From Psychrobacter sp. JCM 18900 (GTDB lineage Bacteria > Pseudomonadota > Gammaproteobacteria > Pseudomonadales > Moraxellaceae): DNA of 64,000 bases. Under the pieces are notes generated by a model. That model ran no database searches. It saw only the letters and a list, made by a program, of their open reading frames with translations, and was not told the origin of the DNA. The stretch is taken from the NCBI RefSeq assembly GCF_904846625.1, contig NZ_CAJHBL010000002.1:496001-560000 (forward strand), in the 5' to 3' direction. The translations under genes were made by a program, and so were the position numbers. Within the stretch, counting starts at the first letter, position 1, and each line of letters opens with the position of its first letter. Below, in pieces: positions 2,998 through 6,713 of the stretch.

Positions 2998-3744
2998 TTA
3001 TGCTTTTTCAAGCTCAGGGCGAGCCAGATCAATCGCCGATATAAGTGCTGATTCAAATTGACCTTCTTCAAATACCACCAATCCCGAATGCGCACCGCAA
3101 AAATGACGACCATCACGCCACTCGTGTGCCAGCTCTACTGCCCAATCACAATAGTGCTTAGCTGCATTTGGCTCATCTGTGAGCGCTTTTTTGGTAGTAG
3201 GGTGTAAACCTAGGTTAGGCTGCACGGCGTTCAATAACTTGGAAGGGGGTATCTCAAAGGTATCATCGACATAAATGCTCTGGCTAGCAGGATGATAGAC
3301 CAATAAGGAGCTGGCATGAACCGTTTCATCCGGTGAGATGTAATGGATGCCTTGAGGTATAGAGAATTGGAGTTCAGGGTAACGCGCAGCAACGGCATCG
3401 CTTTCGACCAAATCATTTACCCAATTGACTTCAGGTACTTGCTCTGGATGTCGGCTACTGCCATAAAACGTCGCTTGCGGAAAGTCTTCTGCCATTTGAG
3501 CACAGTGTACTGTATGAAATGGATGAATATTGAGGACGGCTTCGACATTTTGACCATCATTGGTCAATGCCATGACTTGCTGACGCACATCACCAGTTAA
3601 TGTATAGCTATCTAAAAAGATAAATCGCTCTGATGATAGTCTTATGAGCGCACATTGGACACCGATATCAAGGATACCGTTTTTGATAAATGATCCTCGA
3701 ATACTCCAAAATCCTGCACCTAAATCATACATTTCATCAGTCAT
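2998..3744 (-). CDS. Degenerate metallo-beta-lactamase-fold protein, copy 2
   Basis: A 248-residue paralogue of the downstream gene, aligning end to end without large gaps (both open DLGAGFW, then IRG a few residues on, and share FYGSSRH, HPFHTV, VDDTF and LHPTTKKAL). An ATG six bases upstream is also in frame, but the ribosome-binding site AAGGAG is only two bases from it and eight bases from the ATG at 3744, and the latter start matches copy 1. The metal motif is HPFHT, as in copy 1. The high identity suggests a local duplication. Function is unknown. Confidence 0.8.
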   Translation of the reverse strand: MTDEMYDLGAGFWSIRGSFIKNGILDIGVQCALIRLSSERFIFLDSYTLTGDVRQQVMALTNDGQNVEAVLNIHPFHTVHCAQMAEDFPQATFYGSSRHPEQVPEVNWVNDLVESDAVAARYPELQFSIPQGIHYISPDETVHASSLLVYHPASQSIYVDDTFEIPPSKLLNAVQPNLGLHPTTKKALTDEPNAAKHYCDWAVELAHEWRDGRHFCGAHSGLVVFEEGQFESALISAIDLARPELEKA

Positions 3745-3805
3745 CAACATTGCTCCTTAATCGTTCATTTATTCAATCATTTTACTTGTTTGTAGCACCC
3801 TACAA

Positions 3806-3903
3806 TCGGTCCAATATAATTTGGATACAAGGAAAGCGAGTGAAAGTACTACAAGTTGTAGACTAAGCAGGCCTGACACCGTATCCAATTTATAGAGGAT
3901 TGA
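3806..3903. repeat. 98-bp element with imperfect terminal inverted repeats
   Basis: The left arm 3806-3828 and right arm 3881-3903 are inverted repeats that match at about 18 of 23 positions. The interior holds a small palindrome (CTACAA-G-TTGTAG, 3850-3862). No reading frame is present. It lies in the 309-base spacer between the metallo-hydrolase-fold genes and the PETase-like gene; the rest of that spacer (3904-4053) shows nothing recognisable. This shape fits a small dispersed non-autonomous element or repetitive palindromic unit, but no second copy was found in the window. Confidence 0.45.
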
Positions 3904-4053
3904 CTATATGATTATTAATTTTTATGACAGTAATGTCTGTAAGAAAAAAGATAGAAGCAATGTAAATGTGTAAAAATAAAAAAGTGTTGTTATTCAAATG
4001 TCATCATCAGCAGTGAAAGCTGTTCTTCCTTTCGTAACTAGGTTAAAAATAGC

Positions 4054-4998
4054 TTATAAACAGTCTTCGTAATCATAGGCAGATATACGAGGATTATCCT
4101 TGTAGCTTTCATTGCCACATAAGAATTTATCGAAACGTGTGTCACCGTTAATATAACGCTGCATCCATGCAATAGCAGGCTTACTTAATAGTTTCTCGTT
4201 AAAACGATGGCTGGCACAGAAATGACTGCCGTTGTTAATCTCGACCTTCATTTTTGGACCGTCAGCTTTTTGATAGAAAGTATTGGTATATTTTTTATTC
4301 GGGGCGATACGGTCATTTTCACAAGCGATGAATAGAGCAGGCGTATCCATCGCGCCATAGCTCGTATCGTGATAGGGCGTTTGTGCAATGATGGCTTGCA
4401 CCGTACTGCGCTCAGTTGCCAGTCGTAGCGCACCGCCGCCGCCCATTGACCAGCCAATAGCGCCCAAACGATTTTGATCTATCATATGACCCACTGTTTC
4501 ATCAGCGAGGAGATGATCGAGAGCTGCGCTCAATTGCTCAGCACGGCTATCTGGGTGATCGTAAATGGAGCTAGTATTAATAGTAATAACGACAAATCCC
4601 CAAGAGGCCAAACGCGGTCCCCACCATTTGATAGAAGACTCATAAGACACGTAACCTGGTACCACCGCGATGCCACCTAGCAGACCACAGCTAGCAGCAT
4701 CTGTTGGATAATGTATGGTACCGCCAGCGAAGCCATTGGCTGATTGGCGACTCACGTGCTTGGTACTGATAGAAAACGGACCGTTATCGCGTGTTTTAGT
4801 GAGCTCAGTAGCAGTGATAGTATCATCCTTTATACAGTCTACTGCCGCTAGTGAGTTTGTAGCGTCGAGTGTTGATCCAACTGGACTGAGACTTTTAACG
4901 CTAGTTTCGGATACAGTTATTTCTGCTACAGCCATTGTAGAGAAAACCAATGTACTCATTGCGATCATAAGTTTTGGAAGCATCATATTTTTTGTCAT
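4054..4998 (-). CDS. Secreted PETase/cutinase-like polyester hydrolase
   Basis: A 314-residue alpha/beta hydrolase of the dienelactone-hydrolase/cutinase type. A signal peptide ends near A25. The core closely resembles known PET hydrolases: VVPGY (113-116), WGPRLASWGFVVITI (126-140), the nucleophile elbow GWSMGGGG with S184, CENDRIAP with D229, and NGSHFCAS with H259 as the triad. Cysteine pairs C226/C261 and C294/C313 match the two disulfides of Ideonella-type PETases, and C55/C104 could form a third. The position of the wobbling tryptophan is tyrosine (Y209). About 50 residues separate the signal peptide from the core. Natural substrate is unknown: cutin-like polyester, lipid or other ester. 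No strong ribosome-binding site precedes the start. Confidence 0.9.
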   Translation of the reverse strand: MTKNMMLPKLMIAMSTLVFSTMAVAEITVSETSVKSLSPVGSTLDATNSLAAVDCIKDDTITATELTKTRDNGPFSISTKHVSRQSANGFAGGTIHYPTDAASCGLLGGIAVVPGYVSYESSIKWWGPRLASWGFVVITINTSSIYDHPDSRAEQLSAALDHLLADETVGHMIDQNRLGAIGWSMGGGGALRLATERSTVQAIIAQTPYHDTSYGAMDTPALFIACENDRIAPNKKYTNTFYQKADGPKMKVEINNGSHFCASHRFNEKLLSKPAIAWMQRYINGDTRFDKFLCGNESYKDNPRISAYDYEDCL

Positions 4999-5073
4999 AG
5001 TAAATTGTATTTTAAAAGGTTGTGTGGTCGTGCACGTCTCCAGATTAGAAAAGATAGACGTAGGTAGTGATTG

Positions 5074-5331
5074 TTAACTGTCATTGTTATCAATCGTTAA
5101 AGCAGTTAAATGCGTAGCAAATGCGTCAATAGCATCTAACCATACTATCCTGTATATGCGATAAACGTAACGTTGATCTTGACCTTGCGAGTCGAAAACT
5201 GTCTTCACCGTCTCAAGTCGAAATGTGATTCCTAGCCAAGTTTTTCTACGATAATCTTGAACCCGAATAAAGAATCTATCAAGCGTTAATAACACTTTTA
5301 AACCTGAGTATATTGATGAATGTGCTACCAT
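5074..5331 (-). CDS. Doubtful small open frame
   Basis: An 85-residue reading frame in the 434-base spacer between the PETase-like gene and the divergent MFS gene. It has no ribosome-binding site in front of its ATG, no recognisable motif and no membrane segment. The composition (many R, Y, T, V) does not argue strongly either way. It may be chance. Apart from this frame and the palindrome at 5367-5412, I see nothing in the spacer. Confidence 0.2.
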   Translation of the reverse strand: MVAHSSIYSGLKVLLTLDRFFIRVQDYRRKTWLGITFRLETVKTVFDSQGQDQRYVYRIYRIVWLDAIDAFATHLTALTIDNNDS

Positions 5332-5366
5332 AATTTGCTTGTCATTATGATGAGCATTTATCGTTT

Positions 5367-5412
5367 AATAACGGTGCTTTTGCTCATACATTTAGCATAA
5401 ATCACCGTTATT
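5367..5412. promoter_or_regulatory. Perfect 10-base inverted repeat upstream of MFS gene
   Basis: AATAACGGTG (5367-5376) and CACCGTTATT (5403-5412) form a perfect inverted repeat with a 26-base spacer, ending 20 bases before the proposed GTG start of the transporter. It could be an operator half-site pair or an RNA hairpin in the leader. No T-run follows, so it is not an obvious terminator. Confidence 0.35.
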
Positions 5413-5432
5413 TATCTCTATCATCCACGCCA

Positions 5433-6713
5433 GTGACGGTTATTATTTGCAGTCATGGTATAACCAATATAGTCAGATCCCCTGTGAATAATTCTAAAGA
5501 TCAGATTCAAGATATAACAGCTGTGCCACCAGTCACATCCAATCATTCAACGTCGTGGATATTGAAGCTCACAATTGGTTTGATAGGTATGTTTGCTTTT
5601 TTGCAAGTGTATTCTATTCAGGCAGTACTACCGGTCATGATGGTGGACTTTGCTGCGACCGAAGTACAGGCTGGCATGATCGTTGGTGCCACTGTGTTAG
5701 CCATTGCGATTATGTCACCATTTCTAGGCATGCTCTCAGATGCGGTCGGGCGCAAGTCTTTTATCGTTGGTGCTTTATTGTTTTTAGCGATACCAACAGC
5801 GCTTATTGCCCAGAGCTCGAGCATTGAATGGGTCGGCATTTGGCGCTTCATGCAAGGATTGTCTGTACCGGGTATTACGGTGGTGACAATTGCCTATATC
5901 GGTGAGGAGTTTGAGGGACGGGCGATGACTGAGCTGATGTCCTTTTATGTGTCAGGATGCGTGCTTGGTGGCTTTATGGGTCGGTTCTTGTTGGGGCATT
6001 TGCATGAGCTGATTGGCTGGCGTCATGGCTACTATGTGATGACGGCGATGACGCTATTGGGGGCAATATGGGTTGGCAAGATGCTACCGTCGTCTCGTCA
6101 TTTTGTGGCCAATCCTAATTTTCGCTCAGCGATCCAGACGCTGGGTGAGCATGTCACCAATCGCTATGTGGTAACAGCTTGTCTGCTTGGCGCTTGCGTG
6201 CTGTTCTCCCTTGTAGGCTGTTTCACTTTTATCAATTTACATTTGGCAGATAAGCCTTATGAGCTTGGTACTGGTGCGCTCGCCAATATTTTTGCGGTAT
6301 ATTTGCTTGGTGTTATTATCACGCCATTGTCTACGACATTGCTACGTCGGTTTGGCTCAGCGCGTACAGTACGGGTGGCTATTGTCGTATCCATGGTCGG
6401 AGTATTATTAACTTTGGTCACGCCATTATGGGGGGTGATTATAGGACTGGCTATTATGTCGTCAGGTGTATTTATTACGCAGTCAGCGACTATCAGCTAT
6501 ATCGCGGTCAATGTGAAAAAAGGCCGCTCATTAGCATCGGGTCTATATTATATGGGCTACTATACAGGCGGTACGCTAGGGGCATGGCTGGGTGGCATAG
6601 CTTATGCGCGAGGGCAGTGGTCTCTTACCGTATGGTTGTTATTGTTTGTGCAGGTACTGGCGTTATTAATAGCCAGTTTTGGGATGATTAAAACCACAGT
6701 ACGGGCAAAGTGA
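5433..6713 (+). CDS. MFS transporter, YnfM/arabinose-efflux type
   Basis: A 426-residue major facilitator with 12 predicted membrane helices from about residue 44 onward. The loop 2-3 signature appears as GMLSDAVGRKSFIVG, and FLQVYSIQAVLPVMM in helix 1 resembles the YnfM group of drug/metabolite exporters. It probably moves a small molecule by proton antiport across the inner membrane; the substrate cannot be read from sequence. The first in-frame ATG would cut into helix 1, so a GTG must be the start: 5433, 5484 or 5523. None has a convincing ribosome-binding site, so the first 30 residues are uncertain. Confidence 0.85.
   Translation: MTVIICSHGITNIVRSPVNNSKDQIQDITAVPPVTSNHSTSWILKLTIGLIGMFAFLQVYSIQAVLPVMMVDFAATEVQAGMIVGATVLAIAIMSPFLGMLSDAVGRKSFIVGALLFLAIPTALIAQSSSIEWVGIWRFMQGLSVPGITVVTIAYIGEEFEGRAMTELMSFYVSGCVLGGFMGRFLLGHLHELIGWRHGYYVMTAMTLLGAIWVGKMLPSSRHFVANPNFRSAIQTLGEHVTNRYVVTACLLGACVLFSLVGCFTFINLHLADKPYELGTGALANIFAVYLLGVIITPLSTTLLRRFGSARTVRVAIVVSMVGVLLTLVTPLWGVIIGLAIMSSGVFITQSATISYIAVNVKKGRSLASGLYYMGYYTGGTLGAWLGGIAYARGQWSLTVWLLLFVQVLALLIASFGMIKTTVRAK

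Follow-up and report, generated by a model that had tools for sequence, protein, structure and literature searches.

The closest characterized relative of the protein considered here is Mors1 (Lipase 1; UniProt P19833, PDB 8spk) of Moraxella sp. TA144, which is reported to hydrolyze PET: at 25 °C, amorphous material lost 1.98% of its weight over 6 days (PMC11509169). Its crystal structure contains a third disulfide, Cys60-Cys109, along with an active-site disulfide, Cys231-Cys266, and its Tyr214 and Asp153 are described as replacing two conserved subsite I residues (PMC11509169). In UniProt, Mors1 is annotated as a triacylglycerol lipase, and its source strain appears as Psychrobacter sp. TA144 in one table of PMC10312091 and as Moraxella elsewhere in the same article. 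Three disulfides are also present in PET6, a PET hydrolase of Vibrio gazogenes (PDB 7z6b), where the third joins residues 27 and 30 (PMC9679969). One review equates the third disulfides of PET6 and Mors1, while the relevant passage of PMC11219463 mentions them side by side and does not equate them. Psychrobacter proteins have already entered this literature: a homolog from P. nivimaris LAMA 639 was named a candidate PET hydrolase, by sequence only (PMC8857425), and the candidate table of a review (PMC8540959) includes a 313-aa Psychrobacter protein as PET9 and P19833 as PET8.

The window analyzed here is a 64,000-nt stretch of Psychrobacter sp. JCM 18900 (contig 2, positions 496001-560000, of a 3.28-Mb genome). 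The minus strand at 4054-4998 holds an intact frame of 314 codons that starts with ATG and encodes 314 aa. A preliminary description, based on the letters of the window, had assigned it a S184/D229/H259 triad, Y209, and six cysteines, and a script run on the translation placed every one of these where it had been reported, with cysteines at 55, 104, 226, 261, 294, and 313 and at no other position. The motifs quoted in that description were all found in the translation as well. The features of the gene are as follows:

4054..4998, minus strand: complete CDS, 314 aa, for a PET-hydrolase-family esterase close to Mors1, putatively secreted
4924..4998, minus strand: putative Sec signal peptide, residues 1-25, cleavage after AVA (by eye from the translation)
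4834..4836, minus strand: Cys55, predicted N-terminal partner in the third disulfide, equivalent to Mors1 Cys60 (bond taken from Mors1)
4687..4689, minus strand: Cys104, predicted core partner in the third disulfide, equivalent to Mors1 Cys109 (bond taken from Mors1)
4555..4557, minus strand: His148, subsite I position, equivalent to Mors1 Asp153 (by alignment; Mors1 residue from a review)
4447..4449, minus strand: Ser184, catalytic nucleophile (by script and alignment)
4372..4374, minus strand: Tyr209, at the clamp Trp position, equivalent to Mors1 Tyr214 (by alignment and a review)
4312..4314, minus strand: Asp229, catalytic (by script and alignment)
4222..4224, minus strand: His259, catalytic (by script and alignment)
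4321..4323, minus strand: Cys226, predicted active-site disulfide to Cys261 (Cys231-Cys266 in Mors1)
4216..4218, minus strand: Cys261, predicted active-site disulfide
4117..4119, minus strand: Cys294, predicted C-terminal disulfide to Cys313 (bond taken from the family)
4060..4062, minus strand: Cys313, predicted C-terminal disulfide (bond taken from the family)

The translation matched the Pfam PETase model (PF12740) with 280 bits (E 2.4e-83) against a cut-off of 28. In a phmmer search of PDB sequences, 8spk ranked first (E 6.5e-140), far ahead of 7z6b in second place (6.4e-71). Such resemblance to PET hydrolases is well outside what chance would produce. Using an AlphaFold2 model as query, Foldseek likewise placed 8spk_A first (TMt 0.88), under the title "Crystal structure of Antarctic PET-degrading enzyme". 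This model was built from 26 sequences of a single genus, including 25 of the 27 named loci with a relative of the protein (the broken L045 and L049, which has a run-on end, were left out), and had a mean pLDDT of 63.3, with residues 208-211, 226-240, and 254-265 under 50. The Pfam, PDB, and fold matches thus agree on the PETase/cutinase-like hydrolase that had been proposed, its secretion being suggested by the signal peptide seen by eye. The score against the NCBIfam BHET hydrolase equivalog (NF051441) was 231.7 bits, where its cut-off requires 520. It is exceedingly improbable that the protein belongs with the dienelactone hydrolases or is some other non-cutinase alpha/beta hydrolase: the Pfam dienelactone hydrolase and Peptidase_S9 models did score narrowly above their cut-offs (23.2 and 24.1 bits, respectively), and a few PDB relatives among the matches listed carry dienelactone-hydrolase names (8otu, 7dzt-7dzv, 7cwq), but these weak scores stand against 280 bits for PETase, the top two PDB matches are both published PET hydrolases, and most names among the 60 matches listed, out of 178, are those of PET hydrolases, polyester hydrolases, or cutinases. 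A dienelactone hydrolase identity, the outcome against which the preliminary description had set its own reading, was accordingly rejected on the family scores.

Under the classification used in PMC12442448, PMC11509169, and PMC11219463, the protein would fall into type IIa. It has a predicted Ser-Asp-His triad within the PETase family, its cysteines 226, 261, 294, and 313 are present and aligned for the two disulfides predicted from relatives, and its subsite II residues are W183 and F260; according to PMC11219463, Trp with Phe denotes type IIa, and Trp with Ser denotes type IIb. The active-site loop aligns with that of type II relatives, though with one residue fewer in the Psychrobacter rows shown, and the same review counts Mors1 among the enzymes with an extended active-site loop. 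The resemblance to an Ideonella-type PETase that had been noted earlier holds for the fold, the triad, and the two disulfides conserved in type II enzymes (IsPETase; PDB 6eqe and others). IsPETase, however, is a type IIb enzyme with ~41% identity to our protein in the fold alignment with 6eqe, and the nearest characterized enzyme is Mors1.

The alignment with 8spk ran ungapped from residue 53 to residue 313, with 77.0% identity over 261 residues, so that Mors1 numbering minus five gives the numbering of the Psychrobacter protein. By this correspondence the Mors1 features fall on C55-C104, C226-C261, Y209, and H148. The two proteins share the triad, all six cysteines, and a Tyr at the clamp Trp position, and they are identical at residues 115-118, 183-185, 209, 229, 231, 259, and 260. 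They differ, from residue 53 onward, at H148 (Asp153 in Mors1) and A262 (Pro in Mors1), among others; 23% of the compared residues differ in all, which, with the change at Asp153, counts against reading our protein as a Mors1 counterpart. In a tree from which 14 of 80 rows were omitted (13 distant matches, L071-L083, with <31% identity, and the broken L045), Mors1 nested within the Psychrobacter branch (100/100; 51 of 66 rows). Relative to the Mors1 subgroup, the third-disulfide cysteines align without gaps, with the same pairing predicted, and the clamp Trp position holds Tyr; the Asp at subsite I is replaced by H148, a trait that is not fixed in the subgroup, as Asp occurs in 24 of 50 Psychrobacter rows. 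The P. nivimaris LAMA 639 protein (L038), presumably the 314-aa candidate of PMC8857425, is 92% identical and likewise 314 aa long, but has N148 and G91 in place of H148 and A91. Ala91 (4726-4728) is private to the protein studied here; Gly occupies the position in all 49 other Psychrobacter rows.

The preliminary description had suspected that C55 and C104 form a third disulfide, and the equivalent Cys60-Cys109 bond in the Mors1 crystal (PMC11509169) supports this. Both cysteines occur in Mors1 and in each of the 50 distinct Psychrobacter proteins, ours included, as well as in the broken copy L045, which lies outside that count; C313, by comparison, is missing from a single row, L088, which has a run-on end. 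The low confidence of the structure prediction (mean pLDDT as above) leaves some room for C55 and C104 being unpaired or paired otherwise, but given their occurrence in 50/50 rows and Mors1, together with the bond reported from the crystal, we consider this very unlikely. Cys104 sits on a two-residue insertion that the rows outside Psychrobacter lack, and it is absent from 15/15 of those rows, among them the PET6 row, which is partial but spans the position. On the tree, with PET6 not counted, its state changed once. Instead, in 12/14 of the outside rows that include the N-terminus, the N-terminal linker holds a pair of cysteines spaced by 3 to 5 positions; the remaining two, tandem PETase genes of one other genome of the order (L060), have neither of the N-terminal cysteines. 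PET6 is itself 51.5% identical to our protein over the compared part, but its third disulfide is local (residues 27-30), it has a gap at the C104 position, and it retains Trp and Gln in subsite I. By position, then, the third disulfides of PET6 and Mors1 are different bonds. Neither the predicted C55-C104 bond nor Tyr209 is new here, since the equivalents of both have been described in Mors1.

Subsite I was compared at positions 148 and 209 in rows from which L071-L083 and L045 were omitted, as they were for the counts at position 91. Position 209 was Tyr in 50/50 Psychrobacter rows; of the 15 rows outside the genus, 12 had Trp and three had Tyr. The position changed at least four times on the tree, so that Tyr209 is not special to Psychrobacter. 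The earlier observation that Y209 takes the place of the clamp Trp is therefore correct, but the caution about polyester activity that was attached to it is weakened, since Mors1, with Tyr214, hydrolyzes amorphous PET at 25 °C and Tyr is thus compatible with PET hydrolysis. Position 148 corresponds, as we infer from the remark on D153 and the DxP motif, to Gln95 of PHL7, which equals Gln119 of IsPETase and is described (PMC10076380) as lying in the second shell of subsite I and as being conserved in most polyester hydrolases. Gln was found in 15/15 rows outside Psychrobacter, while the 50 Psychrobacter rows contained D (24), N (20), R (3), Q (1), K (1), and H (1), with at least seven changes on the tree. 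Counted from residue 70, the position ranks 30th in variability among 245 positions and is hence variable but not extreme. His148 is unique to the protein studied here among the 50 Psychrobacter rows, its nearest relatives having Asn.

This variation, along with the UniProt annotation of Mors1, could be taken to mean that the protein is mainly a cold-active lipase or esterase in which polyester hydrolysis is weak or was lost in this branch through the subsite I changes (Y209, H148). Such a reading overlaps with our own and differs from it in the strength of polyester activity. We regard it as rather unlikely, because Tyr214 and Asp153 do not keep Mors1 from degrading amorphous PET at 25 °C, and because our protein has the same residues as Mors1 at 115-118 and the other positions listed with them above. 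With high confidence as to family and mechanism, though not as to strength on PET, we consider the protein to be the Psychrobacter counterpart of Mors1, that is, a putative secreted, cold-active polyester hydrolase/esterase of type IIa, which probably cuts polyesters. Its cold activity, polyester activity, and disulfide pairing are read across from Mors1 and the family. After export by the Sec pathway, the mature enzyme would fold as an alpha/beta hydrolase, in which Ser184, His259, and Asp229 would cleave ester bonds in a cleft open at the surface. The active-site loop would be tied by C226-C261 and the C-terminus by C294-C313, while C55-C104 would staple the N-terminal segment onto the core. 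In nature, we infer, it probably acts on lipids and natural polyesters, and its hydrolysis of PET would be a modest side activity.

Searches of other genomes gave a PETase match in 50 of 105 Psychrobacter genomes, and all 27 named loci encoding relatives belong to Psychrobacter. The genome studied here has one PETase-family match. Outside the genus, 58 genomes in a family search of 348 matched weakly at E ≤ 0.001, the best of them with E 3.3e-11 and 27% identity; an order sample of 390 genomes contained 11 with matches at E < 1e-50, and a class sample of 369 contained two, besides the studied genome, at E ≤ 1e-30. One genome (G019) has two PETase copies, L090 and L091; L091 branches deepest within the genus group and is the sole Psychrobacter row to keep Q148. 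In Psychrobacter sp. JCM 18901 (L045/L020), the PETase frame is broken; the neighbor matches are partial too, so an assembly error is the likely cause.

In 26 of the 27 named loci, P. frigidicola (L043) being the sole exception, the PETase gene lies between a gene for an MFS transporter (5433-6713 in the window) and at least one gene resembling the following pair:

2131-2877 and 2998-3750, minus strand: adjacent genes encoding ~250-aa proteins that resemble each other

No Pfam or NCBIfam family matched this pair at 1e-3, and no PDB match was obtained for the protein at 2998-3750 at E up to 5; by eye, the pair is metallo-hydrolase-like. Among the 55 Psychrobacter genomes without a PETase match, 20 were examined at the MFS locus. 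The MFS gene was present in all 20, and no PETase was found beside it in the 6-8 kb examined. A 250-aa gene was kept beside the MFS gene in 11 of them (in seven, the gap to the MFS gene was <600 bases, too short for a PETase), and the other nine had neither a 250-aa gene nor a PETase. These observations suggest that the PETase is present or absent at one fixed chromosomal slot. An operon was rejected, although the neighbors are conserved: four promoter-like sites occurred in 3700-5500 against a shuffle mean of 5.3. Neither of the two terminator-like sites was on the minus strand.

Among close relatives (L031-L042, L053, L055), the median pairwise dN/dS of the PETase gene was 0.151 (14 pairs), compared to 0.104 for the 250-aa gene at 2998, 0.062 for Rrf2, 0.022 for the AMP ligase, and 0.019 for the MFS gene; these are simple Nei-Gojobori estimates in which every pair shares the studied genome as reference, and they do not constitute a test of selection. 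Pairs with <90% coverage were dropped (leaving 11 for Rrf2, 13 for the AMP ligase, and 14 for the others), and one 250-aa gene has no median, one of its pairs being saturated. Median dS was 0.209 for the PETase gene and 0.213 for the MFS gene. The values point to purifying selection on the PETase gene, which is constrained yet changing faster than its neighbors.

A plastic-eating lifestyle found no support in the genome. A search for a tannase-type MHETase was empty in the studied genome and also in 14/14 control genomes, so that its result is no evidence of absence. A single ring-hydroxylating oxygenase is encoded beside a frame that resembles an aldehyde dehydrogenase by eye, and nothing ties the oxygenase to terephthalate.

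Taken as a whole, these results support the preliminary description in substance, and a known enzyme family gains a member. We further propose, with as much doubt as conviction, that the Mors1-type enzymes of Psychrobacter constitute a subclass of their own within type IIa, which would have arisen by one ancestral gain of the C55-C104 staple, a bond distinct from the PET6-like local pair, after which a subsite I Gln that is fixed elsewhere would have been replaced repeatedly by D, N, R, K, or H. If this is true, the third disulfides do not represent a single device for cold adaptation that these enzymes share, and substrate preference has been drifting inside Psychrobacter, the His of the studied protein being found in no other row compared. 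The contribution of the protein is one more natural variant among the 50 distinct Psychrobacter homologs of a low-temperature PET hydrolase whose structure is solved. Though no surprise, this homolog set, with its natural subsite I substitutions and two contrasting N-terminal disulfide designs, is of use in enzyme engineering.
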